Source: Pseudomonadota bacterium (GTDB taxonomy: Bacteria > Pseudomonadota > Gammaproteobacteria > Acidiferrobacterales > Acidiferrobacteraceae). From it: DNA of 64,000 bases. The notes beneath the pieces were generated by a model, which was given only the letters and a program-made list of their open reading frames with translations, was not told where the DNA came from and did no database searches. The stretch lies in NCBI GenBank assembly GCA_021794275.1, contig JAJYRD010000046.1:1-64000 (forward strand). The letters run 5' to 3'. This document shows positions 6,632-14,484 of the stretch, piece after piece (the first letter of the stretch is position 1; every line of letters starts with the position of its first letter). Made by a program: the position numbers and the translations under genes.

Positions 6632-7723
6632 GTGGCTGATGTCGTATTCATTCTGGGGGCGGGGGCATCACAGCAGGGCGGCGCGCCGGTCATGAGCAAT
6701 TTCCTGGACAAGGCGCGCAGGCTTCTGTTCACCGGGGCCGTGCAAGACCGCGCGGGAGATTTCGCAAAGGTTTTCGAGGCGATCGGCAAGCTCCAGGCCG
6801 TGCATTCGAAGGCGCAGGATCTGGATATCACCAATGTTGAAAGCGTGTTCGCCGCTTTTGAGATGGCGAGGCTTCTTGGCCGGATGCCAGGCTATGGAGT
6901 GGATGAGATAGACGCCCTGATCGCGGCCTTGAAAACGGTCATCGCCTACACCTTGGAGTCGACGCTCAATTTCAACGAGGGGCGCCCCGGGGATCTGCCG
7001 GCAGCACCTGACCCCTATCCGAGGTTCGTCGAGTTGCTGCGCGAGAGCCAGGCGGCATCGCCTCCTTACCGCCACGCCATACTTACGTTCAATTATGACC
7101 TTGCCCTGGACTATGCCCTGCATCGAGAAGGTATCCCCGTGCGCTATTGTCTCGACGATTCCGATCCCGCCGCGGGTCTCCCGCTTTTGAAGCTACACGG
7201 CTCGCTTAACTGGGTCGCCGCTGGAGACGGCGAGGTGGCGCCCTGGAGGATGGACCGTCTGCTGACAGGGGCCGGGGATGCGGTTTTCCAACGGCGGACG
7301 GGCGGGGTGTCGAGGCTTTGCACGACGCCTCGCATCCTCGACCGTCCATCGGGAGAACATCCGGTTATCGTTCCACCAACTTGGAACAAGTATGGCTATC
7401 AGAGCCAATTCACGAGGGTATGGGCCCAGGCGGCGCAGGAGTTGTCGGACGCCCAGCACATTTTCGTGATCGGATATTCCTTGCCGGAGTCAGACCTGTT
7501 CTTTCGCTATCTCTATGCGTTGGGGTCTGTGGGAGATCATCCCCTTGAGATGTTTCGCGTATACGATCCCGACGAGCGCGTCGGGCCTCGCTTTCAAAGC
7601 ATGCTCGGGCCTGGAGCGCGCATTCGTTTTCGCCATGTGGCGACAGGCTTCGAGCACGCGATCGATTTGGTGGAGGCCATTCTAAAGAAGCGGCAGAAAT
7701 GGCCGGAACGGGGCGTGAGCTAG
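6632..7723 (+). CDS. SIR2-like domain protein
   Basis: A 363-residue protein starting at GTG, five bases after GGAGGT. It carries the SIR2-like NAD-binding signature: VFILGAGAS at the N-terminus, AILTFNYDLALD (catalytic Asn position, ~residue 154) and LLKLHGSLNW (catalytic His, ~residue 189), plus a C-terminal HIFVIGYSLPESD strand. Families of this type include NAD-degrading effectors of phage defence (for example ThsA and DSR proteins). No partner defence gene is adjacent, so it may be a stand-alone NADase or have a housekeeping role. The key residues are intact. Confidence 0.75.
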   Translation: MADVVFILGAGASQQGGAPVMSNFLDKARRLLFTGAVQDRAGDFAKVFEAIGKLQAVHSKAQDLDITNVESVFAAFEMARLLGRMPGYGVDEIDALIAALKTVIAYTLESTLNFNEGRPGDLPAAPDPYPRFVELLRESQAASPPYRHAILTFNYDLALDYALHREGIPVRYCLDDSDPAAGLPLLKLHGSLNWVAAGDGEVAPWRMDRLLTGAGDAVFQRRTGGVSRLCTTPRILDRPSGEHPVIVPPTWNKYGYQSQFTRVWAQAAQELSDAQHIFVIGYSLPESDLFFRYLYALGSVGDHPLEMFRVYDPDERVGPRFQSMLGPGARIRFRHVATGFEHAIDLVEAILKKRQKWPERGVS

Positions 7724-7763: not shown

Positions 7764-8750
7764 TCACGTGGCGCGGGTCTTCCCGAGCCGTTTCCCAGGG
7801 GCCCGTGGGCGTTGGGAGGGGTGTAGTTCGGCCACCCAGCCTTTGCGGATACCGAGGTCCGCGCCTTCCTTGACCAAGAAATCCAGAAACACGCTGGCCG
7901 TGAGACCCAGGTGCTTGCCTTGCAGGTGGACCGCATACCACGTCCTATGCAAGGGGAAGCCCACGACATCCAGAATGACGACGCGCTTGGTTTCAAGCTC
8001 CAGCTCCAGGCTGCTCAGGGCCAGAACCGAAACCCCAAGGTCGGCCATGATCGCCTGCTTTATGGCCTCGCTCGATCCAAGTTCCATGTACGGTTCCACC
8101 TCAAGCCCGTGTTCGGCGAACATCTGGGCCGCCGAGCTGCGCGTGCCGGAGCCGACCTCGCGCAGCAGGAAGCGTTCACGGACGATCTCCTCCAGCGGGA
8201 TATCGGTGCGGTCCGCCAGGGGGTGATCCGGGTGCGCGACGACCACGAGCAGGTTGTCCATGAACGCGCGGACCGTAAGGTCCATGTCATTCGGGATCTG
8301 GCCCATGATGACGAAGTCGTCGACGTTTTCAGCCAGGCGCTCCAGAACCCGCGCACGATTTGTCACGGTGAGCTGGGGCGCGACCTCCGGATATTCGTGC
8401 ACGAAAAGCCCGAGAAAATGCGGCATGAAGAATTTGGCGGAGGTGACCACCGCCATCCTCAAGGGCCCGGCTACCTTGCCCTTCATGTCTGCGATCTCCC
8501 CAGTCAGGGCGCGCAATTGGTTCATGACCTTCACCGTGGCGGCGTAGACCTCTTCACCGGCGCGCGTAAGCAGGAGCTTCTTTCCGACCCGTTCGATCAA
8601 GGGCAGGCCCACGATCTCCTCGAGCCGGCGCACCTGGATGTGTACCGCAGGTTGCGTCAGGCATAGCTCTTCGGCTGCGCGCGTGTAGCTGCGATGGCGG
8701 GCGACTGCCTCAAAAAGCCGGAGTTGTTGTAAGGTCCAGTGATTGATCAT
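7764..8750 (-). CDS. cbbR: LysR-family regulator, CbbR-like
   Basis: A 328-residue LysR protein. The N-terminal winged helix-turn-helix (LQQLRLFEAVARHRSYTRAAEELCLTQ region, residues 5-65) is followed by a periplasmic-binding-like effector domain (FFMPHFLGLF...FVIMGQIPND...LREVGSGTRS). The sequence is typical of CbbR, the activator of Calvin-cycle and carbon-concentrating genes that senses metabolites such as NADPH, RuBP or PEP. It is divergent from the aldolase-like gene at 9137. No cbbLS lies in the window. CbbR is the best fit, though CmpR/CcmR-like roles are possible. Confidence 0.8.
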   Translation of the reverse strand: MINHWTLQQLRLFEAVARHRSYTRAAEELCLTQPAVHIQVRRLEEIVGLPLIERVGKKLLLTRAGEEVYAATVKVMNQLRALTGEIADMKGKVAGPLRMAVVTSAKFFMPHFLGLFVHEYPEVAPQLTVTNRARVLERLAENVDDFVIMGQIPNDMDLTVRAFMDNLLVVVAHPDHPLADRTDIPLEEIVRERFLLREVGSGTRSSAAQMFAEHGLEVEPYMELGSSEAIKQAIMADLGVSVLALSSLELELETKRVVILDVVGFPLHRTWYAVHLQGKHLGLTASVFLDFLVKEGADLGIRKGWVAELHPSQRPRAPGKRLGKTRAT

Positions 8751-9136
8751 TAACGACAGTAAATGCCCACACTAATGAAGACTGAGTTCCCTTTATGCAT
8801 TTTACTCTCTAAATTCGATTGTGCCTAACCGGACGGTGGGCGCTGGCGCAGGAGGGCGGGCGCGCGCATCGCGGGCTTCAGAGCGCTAAAGAGCTCGGAG
8901 CTCGCTAAAGGTTGCGCATGCAGCGCGGCTACTTGGGTCCGGCGCCAGACCTCGGTGCCGCTATCTCGATCTGCGGGGGCGGGCTCGGCGGCGTCCGCCT
9001 GAGCGCATGCGGGCGGGCGGTCAGCGTGCGTTCCGCGGCCCTGTATCCGCCCCGACCCTGCGGTCGAGCCCGGGGCGCGCGGCCGCGCGCGCCGTAGCGG
9101 ATTCTTATCGCGCACGCCATCCCTTGGGGACTTGTT
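8751..9136. promoter_or_regulatory. Divergent control region between the LysR gene and the aldolase-like gene
   Basis: This 386-base gap has an AT-rich part (8751-8825) next to the regulator start. It includes TTAACGACAGTAA (8750-8762), which matches the TNA-N7-TNA core bound by CbbR-type regulators. The rest (8830-9110) is very GC-rich with no convincing coding frame. Operator assignment is by motif only. Confidence 0.4.
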
Positions 9137-10393
9137 ATGCCATTGATCGATATGAAAGACATGCTTATGCACGCCTATGAAAACGGTTATGCCGTGGGTG
9201 CCTTCGACCTTGCCGAGATGGATTTCCTGCCGGCGGTGTTGGCCGCCGCCGAATCGGCGCGTGCGCCGGTCATACTCAATATGATCGAGCCCTGGTTCGA
9301 GAGCCCGGCATTTGCCTGGGTCATGGCGGCGGTGGAGGCCGCTGCGGCGCGCGCTACCGTTCCCGTCGCGATTTGCTTCGATCGGGATACCGACGCCCTG
9401 TCCGTGATGCGGGGCGTGCGCCTGGGCGCCAATGGTGCCGTCGCGAGCGCCCTTCAGGAGTCGCTCTTTCGTCATATCGATCGCACGCGCGCCATCGTGC
9501 AGGCGGCGCATGCCTGTGGCGTGCCCGTCGAAGGCGAGTTGGCCTATGCGCCCGACGGCGATGTCGCGGAGGGTGCCGGGCCGTGCACCGTTCAGTCCCC
9601 GACCGTGGCCGAGGCCAAGGGATTCGTCGAGCGCACCAAGGTGGATTTCCTGGCTGTTTCGGTGGGCATGGCGCGTGGGCGAGGAAAGTCGCGATTCGAC
9701 TGGGGGCGCCTGAAGGAGATCAACGCCGCGCTTCGGATACCGTTAGCCATCCGTGACGAAATGGTTCCGGGAGGTGAGCAATGCCACCGGCTTATCATGC
9801 TGGGCATCGCGAAGATCCATTGCTCCGCAGCCCTAAACGACATGGCGAGCGAGCAGCTACGAGCCAACGTGCGGCGTGACCGTAACGCGGATTATAGTGT
9901 CTTGAAGGAGGGTGTGCGTGAGGTCATAGCCACGCAGCTCGAGCCACGCATGCGCGCCTGGGGATCGGCGGGTCGCGCCGCGGAGGTGCTTAGTCGTTGC
10001 GGACCGTGGAACAATATCATGCATGTCGTCGTTTTCAATGTGCCGCGCCTGGAAACGCAGGCGCTGCGTACTCTGATGGCCGAGGGGCAGCGCGTATTGT
10101 CGGGTGTACCGGGGGTGCGGGCGGTTCAGGTCGGAAGTGTCGCGGATGAGGGCGGCCGCTATCGTCACTGCATACTCGCACGTCTGGTCTCGGCGGCCGC
10201 GGCCGAGGCTTTTCGCAGGGATCCCACCTATGTCGGGTTCATGGAACGGCACTTGGCGCCCGTGGCTTCTGATCGCGTTGCGGGCGACTACCGCGTGGCG
10301 GACCACATTCCAGGAATCCCCGCCCTGGCGGCCTTGGCCTCCGCGCCCCATCTCGCGCCCGTGGAAGGGCGCGGGTTTGAGCAGCTTACTTGA
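9137..10393 (+). CDS. Class II aldolase-fold protein lacking zinc ligands, fused to a Dabb domain
   Basis: Residues 1-~280 align throughout with class II fructose/tagatose-bisphosphate aldolases (MKDMLMHAYENGYAVGAFD at the start, LGIAKIHC near the end). Residues ~300-395 form a stress-responsive A/B-barrel (Dabb) domain (NIMHVVVFNVP...YVGFMERHLAPVA). The zinc site is gone. The HLDH segment reads CFDRD (Asp82 kept, His83 to Arg), the GTAHG segment reads GMARG (His to Arg180), and the LHGASG segment reads IRDEMV (His to Arg206). Aldol cleavage through a metal enediolate is therefore unlikely. It is divergent from a CbbR-like regulator. A regulatory, sugar-phosphate-binding or altered catalytic role is inferred. 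Confidence 0.8.
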   Translation: MPLIDMKDMLMHAYENGYAVGAFDLAEMDFLPAVLAAAESARAPVILNMIEPWFESPAFAWVMAAVEAAAARATVPVAICFDRDTDALSVMRGVRLGANGAVASALQESLFRHIDRTRAIVQAAHACGVPVEGELAYAPDGDVAEGAGPCTVQSPTVAEAKGFVERTKVDFLAVSVGMARGRGKSRFDWGRLKEINAALRIPLAIRDEMVPGGEQCHRLIMLGIAKIHCSAALNDMASEQLRANVRRDRNADYSVLKEGVREVIATQLEPRMRAWGSAGRAAEVLSRCGPWNNIMHVVVFNVPRLETQALRTLMAEGQRVLSGVPGVRAVQVGSVADEGGRYRHCILARLVSAAAAEAFRRDPTYVGFMERHLAPVASDRVAGDYRVADHIPGIPALAALASAPHLAPVEGRGFEQLT

Positions 10394-10425
10394 AGCCCCT
10401 CATAGCGAACCCAGTACTCTCCAGA

Positions 10426-10580
10426 ATGGAGAGAGGCGTGAGCATAGGTGAAGCCGCGAAGGCGTTGGGTGGAGCGATCACGACCCCGCACCGCTCGGAG
10501 GCATCGGGCAAGCGGGTCGCCGAACCCATGGCGGGCGGCCATCGCCGATCCGGGTCCGGGGAGGTCCCTCACAAGAGAAG
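10426..10580 (+). pseudogene. Remnant of an IS607-type resolvase (MerR-like HTH part)
   Basis: The frame reads VSIGEAAKALGGAITT...EASGKRVAEPMAGGHRR, the DNA-binding head of IS607-family serine recombinases (TnpA), with substitutions in the recognition helix. The catalytic resolvase domain is missing and the sequence runs directly into a tnpB start. This is the left part of a decayed IS607-like element with an internal deletion. Confidence 0.65.
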
Positions 10581-10585
10581 GTGTC

Positions 10586-10933
10586 ATGATGCTGATCGCC
10601 CCCAAGATCGCGCTCGATCCCAATAACGTGCAGGCGACCTATTTTGCCCGCGCGGCGGGCACCGTGCGCTTCGCCTACAACTGGGCGCGGGCCGAACGGA
10701 AGCACCAGTACGCGGCTTGGAAGTAGGACAAGAGTCCGCCCAAGCCCTCCCAAGGGTCCCTGCGCGGCCAGCTGAACGCCATAAAGCGCGCACAGTTCCC
10801 GTGGATGCGGGAGGTCACCAAGAACGCCCCGCAGATGGCCATCATCCCGTTGGGGCAAGCGTTCCAGAACCTCTTCGCCGGCCGTGCCAGACACCCGAAG
10901 TTCCGTAAGAAGGGGCGCGACCTGCTGAATCAT
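10586..10933 (+). pseudogene. Truncated tnpB of the IS607-like remnant
   Basis: MMLIAPKIALDPNNVQATYF...FAYNWARAER is a typical TnpB N-terminus. An in-frame TAG (10724-10726) interrupts it. Reading on (SLRGQLNAIKRAQFPWMRE...NLFAGRARHPKFRKKGR) continues the family pattern until another stop near 10933. The RuvC nuclease part is absent. No function is expected. Confidence 0.7.
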
Positions 10934-11344
10934 TAGCCGGGGCCGCCGCGCGGTTGCGGGCATGCCGAGGGCGCGTCGCACGACAAAGACCATACCGGCT
11001 TCGATGCAGCAGGAAGCCCGCCTTTTCCGGCCATGAGCAAGGTTAAGCGAATTTTCCGGAATGGCGAAAGACCTGCACAGGAAAGACGGATCGCCGCACA
11101 AGTAACAGGACTTAACCATGGTAAAGCCTCACAATTTTTAATATCAAGTGTCGCTTATTCTTGGCGGTCTCTAAAATCTCGTCTTGTCGCAATGGGCGGC
11201 GCGGCCGGAGAACCTAACCCGTGACTAGGATCTGGCGAGCAGGGGCGGTGCGGCGGCCGATCGGAGCATGGGCATACGCTGGTTTTTCTGCCCCTGCGGT
11301 CGTCTTCTCCCAACCGTCTGGCAGGCTGTGCACGGAGGGTCGTC
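10934..11344. other. Non-coding gap upstream of the DabA-like gene
   Basis: No convincing gene is seen in these 411 bases. An AT-rich patch at 11128-11185 stands out from the GC-rich surroundings and may hold the promoter of the DabA-like gene. CGGAGGG (11333-11339) is that gene's ribosome binding site. Confidence 0.4.
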
Positions 11345-13603
11345 ATGGATGACGGCATCTTAGGAGTATTACGGGAGGGCGGAGAGGGGTTCATGGGCGG
11401 CCGCCATGTGATGGGGCCTGAGGCCTCGGTAACACGCGCTGAGGCGGCGTGGCGCACGGCGGTGCGCGAGGCCTGCGAGCGCGTTGCCCTTGCATGGCCA
11501 TTGGACGGCCGGGTCGTGGTCAACCCCTATTTCGGTTTCTGTCGGCAGGATTTTGAGAAGGCGGATCTCACGCTGATGCGAGTGGCCGGGTCTGCGTTCA
11601 CCATGCCGCGCCGCTATTACCGGGAGCAGATCGCGGCCGGCCGCATCACGCGCGGCGACGTAGCCGAGGCCCTGAAGGCATATGGCCTGCCGTCCGACGA
11701 GGGGTACGCAGCGCGGCTTTTGGCGCACGAAGATGCGCCCCCGCCGCAGGGGGTGCCGCTCGTGTCGCGTGTCATGCAGAAGATCGATCCCGACACGCCG
11801 TGGGCTGCATTTTGCGCCGGGTGTGTAAGCCGGTTCTTGGCCGCCTACCTTGATGCCGATCAGGCGTCATGGCCTTTGCCGTGGCGCAGCCAACCCCTTT
11901 ACGACGCCTGGCGCGGTTTCGCGAGATTGGATGCGAGCCCGCGAGCGGCGGGTTTGGGGGTGGCAGATATCGTCTCGGAACTGCCCCGGCGGCCATTGGA
12001 GACCATAGAACGTGTCTTGAGGGCGCTCGCCATCCCTGACGCCCATATTGCGGACTACTGTCACGCCGCGCTTCTCGATATCGGTGGGTGGGCGACGTGC
12101 GCGCGTCATTCGCGACCTAGGCATGGGTGCGGGAAGATCGAGGACCTGCTCGCCATCCGCCTGGCCTGGGAGTTGATTCTCTTTCGCGCGGGTCGTGTTC
12201 AGCGACTTAGGGCTGCGTGGCGGACAGAGCTCGCCGCCTTGCCGCAGACGCCCGCGGTGCACTCTACAGCCGACGCTGGGATCGATCATGTTCTTCAGGC
12301 CGCGCTTGAGTTTGGATACCGGCGACGGATCGTCGCCGATCTCGGCGCTTGCGTGGAGCGGCCCATCGTTCGTGCCGGGCACGGCCGTGACGCCCTTCAG
12401 GCGGTGTTCTGCATGAGCACCTGCTCCGAGGTCTTTCGCCGTGCGCTGGAGGAGGTCGTTCAGGGGATACGAACTATAGGATTTAGCGGTTTTTGTGGTT
12501 TCCCTCCAACGCTGGCCCATTGCGAACCCTTCATGGAGGCGGTGATCAATACCGCATTGCTTGCCGATGACTATGGGCAAAGCGTGGACGGCAAGGCAGT
12601 ACCGATCATGGCGGGCGCCGACGAAAGCGCCGTGGCCGGTGCCATTCTTCGCGTCATGTCGCTCACGGACGGGTTTTCACGGCTGGTTTTGTTGGTCACG
12701 CATGGTCCGCTGCCCGGTCATGAGTCGCATGGCGCGAGTGCGAGCCGGGGACCCACCTGGACCCCTATCGGCGAGCTGGATGCGCGTACGGTGGCGACCT
12801 TGCTGAATGATCCCGCAATACGCGCCCGGCTTGTGCAAGAAGGGATCGCAATCCCCGCGGATACGTGCTTTGTGGCGGCGTGGTACGACAGCGCGCGTGA
12901 TGAAGTCACCTTGTTCGACGCCGCGCGATGGGAGGCGACGCACGCCCAGGATATGCAGGATGCCCGTGCCGCCTTGGAAGAGGCGGGCCGGTGGGCGCGC
13001 AAGGAGCGCGGCCGCACGTCCGTCTTTGCGGCGCAGGGCGCGGGCGTCGGGCGGGCGCAGGAATGGGGCCGGGTCTTCACCGAGCAGGAATCCATCGGCA
13101 ACGCCGCCTTTATCGCGGCGCCCCGTTCGCGCACGGAGGGGATGGTCTTGGATGGCCGGGCGTTCCTGCACGACTACGAGTGGCACGAGGACAAAGATTT
13201 CCGAATCCTGCGCTTCATCATGACGGTGCCAATGATGGCGGCCCACTGGATGAATCTGCATTACTACACATCGGTGATCGACAACGCACGCTTCGGCGGC
13301 GGCAATAAGATCCGGCAAGAAATGTTCGGAGGGCCCGTCGGGATACTGGAGGGTGCGGGGGGCGACCCCAGGGACTGCCTTCCTGTGCTATCGCTTTTCG
13401 GCGGACGGCACCGGGTACAGGAGCCGATGCGCCTGAACGCGTTCGTGGAAGCGCCCCGTGCCCAGATGGACGAGGTCCTGGAGCATCACGAGATCGTGCG
13501 TAATGTCGTGGACCACGGATGGCTGTTCCTGTTTCAGATGGACAGCGAGGCGGGCGGTATATTCTTGCGCGACCGTGACGGGCGCTGGCGGCAGGTGTCA
13601 TGA
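11345..13603 (+). CDS. DabA-like protein (DUF2309) with altered zinc site
   Basis: A 752-residue relative of DabA, the cytoplasmic subunit of the DAB dissolved-inorganic-carbon uptake system, which has a beta-carbonic-anhydrase-like zinc site. Family landmarks are visible: NPYFGF near the N-terminus, QAVFC...SE, FGGRHRVQEPMRLNAFVEAP and DHGWLFLF. The usual FCIDVRSE motif reads FCMSTCSE (Cys356 kept, the metal-site Asp is Ser358, Arg is Cys360). His453 is kept, but the Cys of the LDCGACGG segment is missing (GASASRGPTW). No dabB membrane partner is adjacent. Start chosen for its GGAGGG. Activity as a CO2-hydrating pump is doubtful. Confidence 0.75.
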   Translation: MDDGILGVLREGGEGFMGGRHVMGPEASVTRAEAAWRTAVREACERVALAWPLDGRVVVNPYFGFCRQDFEKADLTLMRVAGSAFTMPRRYYREQIAAGRITRGDVAEALKAYGLPSDEGYAARLLAHEDAPPPQGVPLVSRVMQKIDPDTPWAAFCAGCVSRFLAAYLDADQASWPLPWRSQPLYDAWRGFARLDASPRAAGLGVADIVSELPRRPLETIERVLRALAIPDAHIADYCHAALLDIGGWATCARHSRPRHGCGKIEDLLAIRLAWELILFRAGRVQRLRAAWRTELAALPQTPAVHSTADAGIDHVLQAALEFGYRRRIVADLGACVERPIVRAGHGRDALQAVFCMSTCSEVFRRALEEVVQGIRTIGFSGFCGFPPTLAHCEPFMEAVINTALLADDYGQSVDGKAVPIMAGADESAVAGAILRVMSLTDGFSRLVLLVTHGPLPGHESHGASASRGPTWTPIGELDARTVATLLNDPAIRARLVQEGIAIPADTCFVAAWYDSARDEVTLFDAARWEATHAQDMQDARAALEEAGRWARKERGRTSVFAAQGAGVGRAQEWGRVFTEQESIGNAAFIAAPRSRTEGMVLDGRAFLHDYEWHEDKDFRILRFIMTVPMMAAHWMNLHYYTSVIDNARFGGGNKIRQEMFGGPVGILEGAGGDPRDCLPVLSLFGGRHRVQEPMRLNAFVEAPRAQMDEVLEHHEIVRNVVDHGWLFLFQMDSEAGGIFLRDRDGRWRQVS

Positions 13604-14484
13604 GCATGGACGGGCCTATGACTCATAACGCGCCGCCGCTCCGAAGCCTCTACCGGGGGCAGCGTGCGGCGTTTTTGACCCAGCACGGGAAGGAGAGCAT
13701 CGTGGGCCCCGTGCTTCAGAGTTTCGTGGGTTGCCAAGTCGAGCGGGTCGCGGGCTATGACACGGATCGCCTCGGGACATTCACGCGCGATATCCCGCGG
13801 GCCGGCACCCAGATCGAAGCGGCTCGCCGCAAAGCGCGTATCGGCATGGAGCTCTCGGGCCTGCCGGTCGGACTTGCCAGCGAGGGGTCCTTTACGCTTG
13901 ATCCATTTGCAGGAATGTTCCCGTGGAATGTCGAACTCCTGGTCTTTCTGGACAGCCTGCTGGATCTCGAGGTGGTCGGCGTGGCGCAGGGCCGGGCCAA
14001 CAGTGCCCAGATCCTTGCGGCGAGCTGGGAAGACGCCGAGCGGTTCGCGCATGCGGTACGCTTCCCTGATCACTATCTGGTCGTACGGCCCGACCATGAT
14101 GGCGATCTTCGGATCCGCAAAGGGGTCGCCGATTGGCGGGGATTCAAGGCGGCCTACGACGAAGCCGCCGCACAGTCGTCCGGCGGGCGCGTGTTTGTTG
14201 AAGTGGATCTCCGCGCCTACGCGAACCCCACGCGCCTCGTCAATATCCGGCTCGCTGCGGTCGATCTCGGCCGGCGCCTGGCGTCCCTGTGCCCCGTTTG
14301 CCGCACCCCCGGGTTTTGGGTGGTCGAGTCGATCGCGGGGTTGCCCTGCCAGGCGTGCGGGGCACCGACGCGCGAGGCGCGTGCCGAAGTCCATGGTTGC
14401 CTCAAGTGTGGGCATAGGCTGACGCGTGACTGCAAAGATCCTGCGCCTGCCGATCCGGCGCGTTGCGATTACTGTAACCCCTAG
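13600..14484 (+). CDS. DUF6671-like zinc-ribbon protein
   Basis: A 294-residue protein coupled to the DabA-like gene by an ATGA overlap. Residues ~35-220 form an alpha/beta region (SFTLDPFAGMFPWNVELLVFLD). The C-terminal ~75 residues hold four CxxC knuckles: CPVC, CQAC, CLKC and CDYC. The pattern matches DUF6671, a family of unknown function. Stable coexpression with a DabA-like protein is implied by the overlap. Nucleic-acid or metal binding by the knuckles is an inference. Confidence 0.65.
   Translation: MSMDGPMTHNAPPLRSLYRGQRAAFLTQHGKESIVGPVLQSFVGCQVERVAGYDTDRLGTFTRDIPRAGTQIEAARRKARIGMELSGLPVGLASEGSFTLDPFAGMFPWNVELLVFLDSLLDLEVVGVAQGRANSAQILAASWEDAERFAHAVRFPDHYLVVRPDHDGDLRIRKGVADWRGFKAAYDEAAAQSSGGRVFVEVDLRAYANPTRLVNIRLAAVDLGRRLASLCPVCRTPGFWVVESIAGLPCQACGAPTREARAEVHGCLKCGHRLTRDCKDPAPADPARCDYCNP

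Follow-up and report, generated by a model that had tools for sequence, protein, structure and literature searches.

What does an aldolase do once the residues that hold its zinc ion are gone? The question is raised by a gene in the window, a stretch of 64,000 nucleotides that begins contig JAJYRD010000046.1 of a bacterium of the family Acidiferrobacteraceae, from a group of acidophiles that fix CO2. The product joins a class II aldolase domain to a Dabb domain, and arginine stands where the aldolase would have its three zinc histidines. The gene is probably that of a pseudoenzyme, kept for a putative non-catalytic role in CO2 fixation.

Through the aldolase-Dabb family, the RuBisCO, carboxysome and dab loci of autotrophs are associated with a second aldolase. 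Should the family have a role that persists in separate lineages after the active site is gone, it would be an unrecognised and testable non-catalytic component of bacterial CO2 fixation.

The Gene and Its Product

The window belongs to a genome assembly of 2.68 Mb. The gene is an open reading frame for 418 amino acids with no internal stop, and its parts are as follows.

9137-10393, + strand: aldolase-Dabb fusion protein, 418 aa, predicted to be catalytically dead (open reading frame, Pfam, alignments)
9149-9976, + strand: class II fructose-bisphosphate aldolase domain, residues 5-280 (PF01116, 6.8e-40; aligned to solved aldolases)
9380-9385, + strand: codons of D82 (catalytic Asp, kept) and R83 (zinc His lost) (alignments, codon comparison)
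9674-9676, + strand: codon of R180 (zinc His lost) (alignments, codon comparison)
9752-9754, + strand: codon of R206 (zinc His lost) (alignments, codon comparison)
10016-10294, + strand: Dabb domain, residues 294-386 (Pfam PF07876, 6.5e-7; HMM from unchanged relatives, 1.4e-30)

The match to PF01116 (F_bP_aldolase) spans positions 2-277 of the 277 in the profile, and the match to PF07876 scores 30.4 bits against a cut-off of 25. Alignment to solved aldolases (1rv8, 7ncc, 8q57) places R83, R180 and R206 at the three histidine positions that we take to be the zinc ligands of class II aldolases; D82 is retained. A preliminary description of this DNA had proposed just such a protein, with three zinc histidines changed to arginine, Asp82 kept and a Dabb domain fused behind, and Pfam and the structural alignment confirm it. 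The three arginine codons are CGG, CGT and CGT. The GGTG phosphate loop and the Asn of the NYYT motif are missing as well.

An AlphaFold2 model built from four sequences has a mean pLDDT of 40.6, too low to be of use. Positions 8600-11400 hold no RNA element at Rfam gathering scores. A viral or plasmid origin was considered and rejected: the viral contigs searched contain no relative of the protein, and none of the 82 plasmid records that match an unchanged fusion covers 80% of that fusion.

Relation to Known Aldolases

The aldolase domain matches the class II fructose-bisphosphate and tagatose-bisphosphate aldolases (PF01116; PRK12857, GatY/KbaY) over its full length. Unlike them, the protein lacks the zinc histidines, the phosphate loop and the NYYT motif, and it carries the additional Dabb domain. 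It falls far below the cut-offs of all 19 NCBIfam aldolase models listed.

A canonical aldolase is encoded in the same genome (319 bits, with D-H, GTSHG and HG motifs). The two proteins are 34% identical over residues 1-192 of the fusion and 27% identical over 343 columns (blastp). The genome also has three RuBisCO-family matches, which are read as form I, form II (a partial match) and a RuBisCO-like protein.

Much closer counterparts can be found in the cbb-linked aldolase-Dabb fusions of Pseudomonadota, which have the same two domains and are co-linear with the window protein over its full length. Seven fusion copies in other families of the order are 42-48% identical to it. What sets the window's family apart is the active site: Asp82 and the three histidines are all present in 37 of the 65 aligned fusions, and in none of the 11 copies of the family.

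Searches of the open literature, outside which subscription journals mostly lie, turned up no report of an aldolase-Dabb fusion and none of a pseudoenzyme among the class II fructose-bisphosphate aldolases. PMC4207490 deals with aldolases of sugar-degrading microcompartments and was judged not relevant here.

Active-Site Residues in the Window's Family

An alignment of 20 relatives and the window protein was later followed by one of 65 full-length fusions, the window's included. Across the 11 copies of the family, position 83 reads R, R, G, E, G, Q, G, C, G, G, G and is never His. Position 180 is Arg in six copies, His in two, and Gln, Tyr or Gly in one each. Position 206 is Arg in four, Ser in two, Ala in two, and Pro, Tyr or His in the rest. 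Even D82 is kept in only six copies, being replaced by Gly, Glu or His in the other five. The family has no conserved set of pocket residues able to form a common new site.

All three arginines occur together in two copies only, those of the window and of a sister species (G005). The preliminary description had suggested looking for homologues that share the three arginines and the Dabb tail, and among the ten other family copies G005 alone has the arginine triple. The two proteins are 80% identical, and two of the three arginine codons differ synonymously between them.

Histidine (CAT or CAC) becomes arginine (CGT or CGC) by a single transition. Ten arginine codons stand at the three ligand positions in the nine copies compared, and eight of these are CGT or CGC; the other two are CGG. 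Some other changed copies (L049, L052, L090, L097, L099) likewise have arginine at one or two of the ligands.

Selection on the Gene

Both domains are open, with no stop codon, in all 11 copies of the family. Stop codons in homologues had been named beforehand as a sign of decay, and neither domain contains one in these copies. The dN/dS of the fusion in three separate species pairs is 0.177 (0.131-0.243), 0.243 (0.150-0.355) and 0.195 (0.137-0.279), with bootstrap limits in brackets; the overall range for the window's clade is 0.18-0.28, which indicates purifying selection. Across five pairs the ratio is similar for the Dabb part (0.14-0.31) and for the aldolase part (0.16-0.28). Among the neighbouring genes, ilvD (0.06-0.09) and lysR (0.06-0.17) lie below the fusion and pyrC (0.13-0.24) lies near it. 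A simple pseudogene is disfavoured by these ratios and by the open frames.

The constraint is unevenly spread. In the 37 relatives that have Asp82 and the three histidines, 15 active-site columns have a mean entropy of 0.17, against 1.11 elsewhere. In the nine-species clade that holds the window the order is reversed, with 1.25 in the same columns against 0.56 elsewhere, a value equalled by fewer than 1 in 10,000 among 20,000 random column sets. Of 81 barrel columns that are near-invariant in the 37 unchanged relatives, 41 are held in at least 10 of the 11 family copies, and the 40 that are not include most of the pocket residues. Purifying selection continued to act on the barrel core and the Dabb domain while the pocket diverged. 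A further 19 sites, for example H113, D86 and W61, have switched to a new residue common to at least eight of the nine species in the clade.

Positive selection at the pocket is not supported. In three close pairs the 15 active-site codons have a dN/dS of 0.16 and the remaining barrel codons one of 0.21; in seven overlapping pairs the values are 0.33 and 0.23.

With catalytic residues lost from a coding sequence that stays under purifying selection, the protein has the sequence features of a pseudoenzyme. The gene is nevertheless dispensable within the genus, since four of the 13 other genomes searched have no fusion or a stub: G004 has no match, G002 and G003 have only an ordinary aldolase, and G006 has a stub of 48 residues. 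The assemblies of G004, G002, G003 and G006 are 92, 85, 94 and 99% complete. Broken copies are also found in other genera (G044, G206, G117).

Distribution and Probable Repeated Loss

The preliminary description called the fusion of aldolase and Dabb an unusual architecture. This view has to be given up: aldolase-Dabb fusions are common in autotrophs of this phylum. In a sample of the class, 53 of 369 genomes have one (match at E 1e-60 or better reaching into the Dabb part), a count that includes G313 by way of a second piece and several others that are partial or broken. In a sample of the phylum, 13 of 398 genomes match at E 1e-50, namely the window's own, four with full-length fusions from other classes, and eight with the aldolase part only. 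Within the order, a threshold of E 1e-5 gives a match in 48 of 57 genomes, in many cases to an ordinary aldolase only, and full-length fusions occur in 17 genomes besides the window's own. The relatives found in a scan of GTDB contigs are 3 loci, out of 11 stretches, from three MAGs.

In total 73 distinct places were found. Dropping three ordinary aldolases and five broken or partial pieces left the 65 aligned rows, into which only some of the partial matches from the class scan were taken. Besides the 37 fusions with a full site there are 28 changed ones, of which 27 differ at a zinc ligand and L091 at D82 alone. Changed and unchanged copies coexist in the genomes G054, G057, G123 (H180Q) and G177 (D82N only, zinc ligands kept).

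In a tree of the 65 rows the window falls inside a supported group (99/95) of its family's 11 copies. Loss of the D-H-H-H set takes at least five changes on this tree, three of them forced by strongly supported branches. A second tree was built with the active-site columns and four long-branch rows left out. On it, with zinc ligands alone considered, loss of any ligand again takes five changes (two forced) and loss of two or more takes three (two forced). The changes are interpreted as losses and not regains; the tree is unrooted, and strong branches force only two to three of them.

The Dabb domain is detectable in all 28 changed proteins with an HMM built from the unchanged fusions. The Pfam Dabb model, applied to eight fusions, gave no match in L101 and L104 and a score just below the cut-off in L090.

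An altered site can also be stable. A clade of eight (100/100; L074, L076, L082, L084, L085, L086, L089, L099) has H180 changed, to Gln in seven and Arg in one, and keeps D82 and the other two ligands. To judge from these residues, its proteins may still bind metal.

Gene Neighbourhoods

The neighbourhoods of 57 fusion genes were compared, 11 from the window's family and 46 from elsewhere; many end at contig edges. Neighbouring genes were named mostly by reading and clustering their sequences rather than by profile search. Names backed by profiles are those of the window's LysR, DabA homologue and DUF6671 protein, the family's DabA genes, and the family's RuBisCO genes, including cbbL of G014.

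Outside the window's family, RuBisCO-operon genes lie within 8 kb of the fusion at 25 of 46 loci, a CbbR-like LysR gene at 28 and dab genes at 7. At least one of these is present at 37 loci and none at nine; a check of the neighbourhoods for cbb or dab genes had been suggested in the preliminary description. The typical order is cbbR, divergent cbbL, cbbS, cbbX or cbbQ-cbbO, a small unknown protein and aldolase-Dabb. In the window's family, RuBisCO-operon genes are found within 8 kb at none of the 11 loci, and a CbbR-like LysR gene adjoins the fusion at nine.

A CbbO gene lies within 8 kb in seven of the eight members of the H180-changed clade (L074 read as L114).

Two or more carboxysome genes are nearby at 5 of 18 loci whose fusion has lost two or three ligands, at 0 of 9 where one is lost and at 1 of 30 where none is lost. 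Fisher's test gives p 0.022 for 5/18 against 1/30, on rows that are related by descent. The five loci (L044, L052, L101, L103, L104) have lost all zinc ligands and adjoin at least two genes of the alpha-carboxysome locus. The carboxysome link is a lead only; two of its five loci, L101 and L104, are those without a Pfam Dabb match.

A Probable Remodelled RuBisCO Locus

Two features upstream of the fusion relate the window to RuBisCO operons.

7764-8750, - strand: LysR-type regulator, CbbR-like (profiles; in a sister genus, the gene of a close relative is transcribed divergently from cbbL-cbbS)
8751-8830, no strand assigned: conserved stretch next to lysR that resembles an operator and has two TNA-N7-TNA boxes, overlapping, at 8773-8785 and 8783-8795

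The best NCBIfam model for the regulator is CbbR, with a score of 229 bits where the model's cut-off is 450, and to this extent the divergent CbbR-like regulator noted earlier is upheld. TNA-N7-TNA is a LysR-type pattern. Both boxes are kept in all nine spacers compared from the genus, and the rest of the spacer is mostly unconserved.

In another genus of the same family (G014), a LysR gene is divergent from cbbL-cbbS-cbbO and cbbL is backed by PF00016. This LysR is 80% identical to that of G005, which in turn is 96% identical to the window's. Over its first 60 bases, the lysR-cbbL spacer of G014 agrees with the window's lysR spacer at 39 positions without gaps, a number reached by none of 10,000 shuffles (maximum 31).

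Because its LysR and operator match those that stand before the RuBisCO genes of the sister genus, the window's locus looks like a remodelled RuBisCO locus. CbbR and its operator appear to have stayed, and the genes behind them are now aldolase-Dabb, a DabA homologue and DUF6671, which CbbR would presumably control.

The DabA Homologue and DUF6671

Two further genes follow the fusion.

11345-13603, + strand: DabA homologue, 752 aa, without equivalents of D353, R355 and C539 and with no adjacent DabB (Pfam DabA, 8.2e-155)
13600-14484, + strand: DUF6671 protein, encoded directly behind the fusion in relatives that lack the DabA homologue (Pfam)

According to PMC13144422, DabA has the zinc ligands C351, H524 and C539 and a D353-R355 dyad. 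A functional DabA of the DAB CO2-uptake complex is also expected to have a DabB. Measured against this, the window's homologue matches the Pfam DabA model and retains C351 and H524 but has lost D353, R355 and C539 and has no adjoining DabB. The gene at 11345-13603 lacks the complete metal site, the dyad and the adjacent partner expected of a functional DabA. The same residues can be followed in eight copies (the window, L035-L040 and L042): D353 and C539 are lost in all eight, R355 in two, H524 in one and C351 in none. No DabB was found beside the homologue in the stretches read. Its dN/dS is 0.23-0.31. Two other DabA proteins of the window's genome have FCIDVRSE and CGAC motifs, each with a DabB of its own.

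The homologue was probably a later addition to the locus, because in L041 and L044, where it is absent, the fusion directly precedes DUF6671. Since the homologue has lost metal-site residues too, the locus is a natural case for testing how genes for CO2 uptake are altered in acidophiles.

DUF6671 follows the fusion, or the DabA homologue after the fusion, in most copies of the window's family. At loci that lack the fusion (L180, L186, L187, L188), it lies near dab or CbbR-like genes.

Possible Roles of the Fusion

Some non-catalytic job is probable because the active site has been lost but the intact protein is kept beside CO2-fixation genes. Judging from the relatives, the ancestor would have been a class II aldolase with a full zinc site and a Dabb domain, encoded alongside cbbR and genes of the RuBisCO operon. 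The pocket has been freed from constraint in the window's family and has diverged in different ways among the species. A CbbR-type regulator and an operator like those of RuBisCO operons now precede the gene, and would control it. Its product would most likely act without catalysis, as a binding or assembly protein in the CO2-fixation machinery that forms oligomers by way of its barrel and its Dabb domain, with aldolase chemistry left to the canonical enzyme encoded elsewhere in the genome.

The main rival is slow decay, in which the fusion lost its purpose once RuBisCO genes left the locus, and the remaining constraint reflects folding or the avoidance of toxicity. Many observations would suit it: the absence or truncation of the fusion in four of the 13 other genomes of the genus, the broken copies in other genera, an active site more variable than the rest of the protein, a dN/dS above that of the adjoining ilvD and lysR, and a neighbouring DabA homologue that is also short of metal-site residues. 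However, dN/dS stays at 0.18-0.24, with upper limits of at most 0.36 in three separate pairs, and is alike in both domains; there are no stops within the domains in any family copy; and about half of the near-invariant barrel columns (41 of 81) persist in at least 10 of the 11 family copies. Slow decay is judged unlikely, though it deserves to be taken seriously. The preliminary description had argued for selection and against decay, and the purifying ratios and open frames bear out that part without removing decay as the chief competitor.

Retained catalysis, with a new chemistry that is metal-free or uses different ligands, would be in keeping with the stable H180-changed clade and with the 19 shared switches, but it is hard to reconcile with a family in which no common pocket is conserved and even D82 gives way to G, E or H. 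It is very improbable. Equally improbable is the idea that the three arginines were selected jointly to bind an anionic sugar phosphate and make the protein a sensor. In its favour are a triple shared with G005 despite synonymous differences in two of three codons, and arginine as the commonest state at position 180 (six of 11 copies). Against it, the full triple is missing from nine of the 11 copies, which have Gly, Glu, Gln, Cys, Ser, Ala, Pro, Tyr or His instead; the phosphate loop and the NYYT Asn have gone; and Arg, the one-transition neighbour of His, turns up singly or in pairs in other changed copies. Scatter of homologues at the ligand positions had been named in advance as what would speak against a selected triad, and because the 11 copies scatter in this way the selected triad is rejected. 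Of the earlier phrase "sensor or repurposed enzyme", then, repurposing probably stands and an anion-binding sensor built on three arginines is not supported.

The putative pseudoenzyme may also be placed in a wider picture. Two dismantled enzymes, an aldolase-Dabb with no zinc site and a DabA short of key metal-site residues, might sit under a captured RuBisCO-operon operator and be kept by selection in acidophiles as a non-catalytic regulator or scaffold for fixing CO2. More broadly, if aldolase-Dabb proteins serve the Calvin cycle structurally or as sensors, with no need of catalysis, this could explain the repeated loss of the site, several times beside carboxysome genes. This extension is speculative, and doubtful as it stands.

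Other Neighbouring Genes

The spacer between the fusion and the DabA homologue is 952 bases long in the window, compared with 58-245 in six relatives and 2532 in L039. At positions 10589-10726 of the window this spacer holds an N-terminal stub of an IS605-type TnpB (Pfam HTH_OrfB_IS605, 7.4e-13), with a stop soon after.

A protein of 363 aa with a SIR2-like domain is encoded at 6632-7723 of the window and lies near lysR in seven loci of the genus. Its dN/dS of 0.05-0.07, in the four pairs that have it, is the lowest of seven genes compared.

A small protein of about 127 aa, with no Pfam match, is found beside many aldolase-Dabb genes (L045:9672-10055 and 13 other loci). A protein of the same type (L184:767-1186) also adjoins the canonical aldolase of the window's genome, and the small protein is a possible candidate for an aldolase partner.
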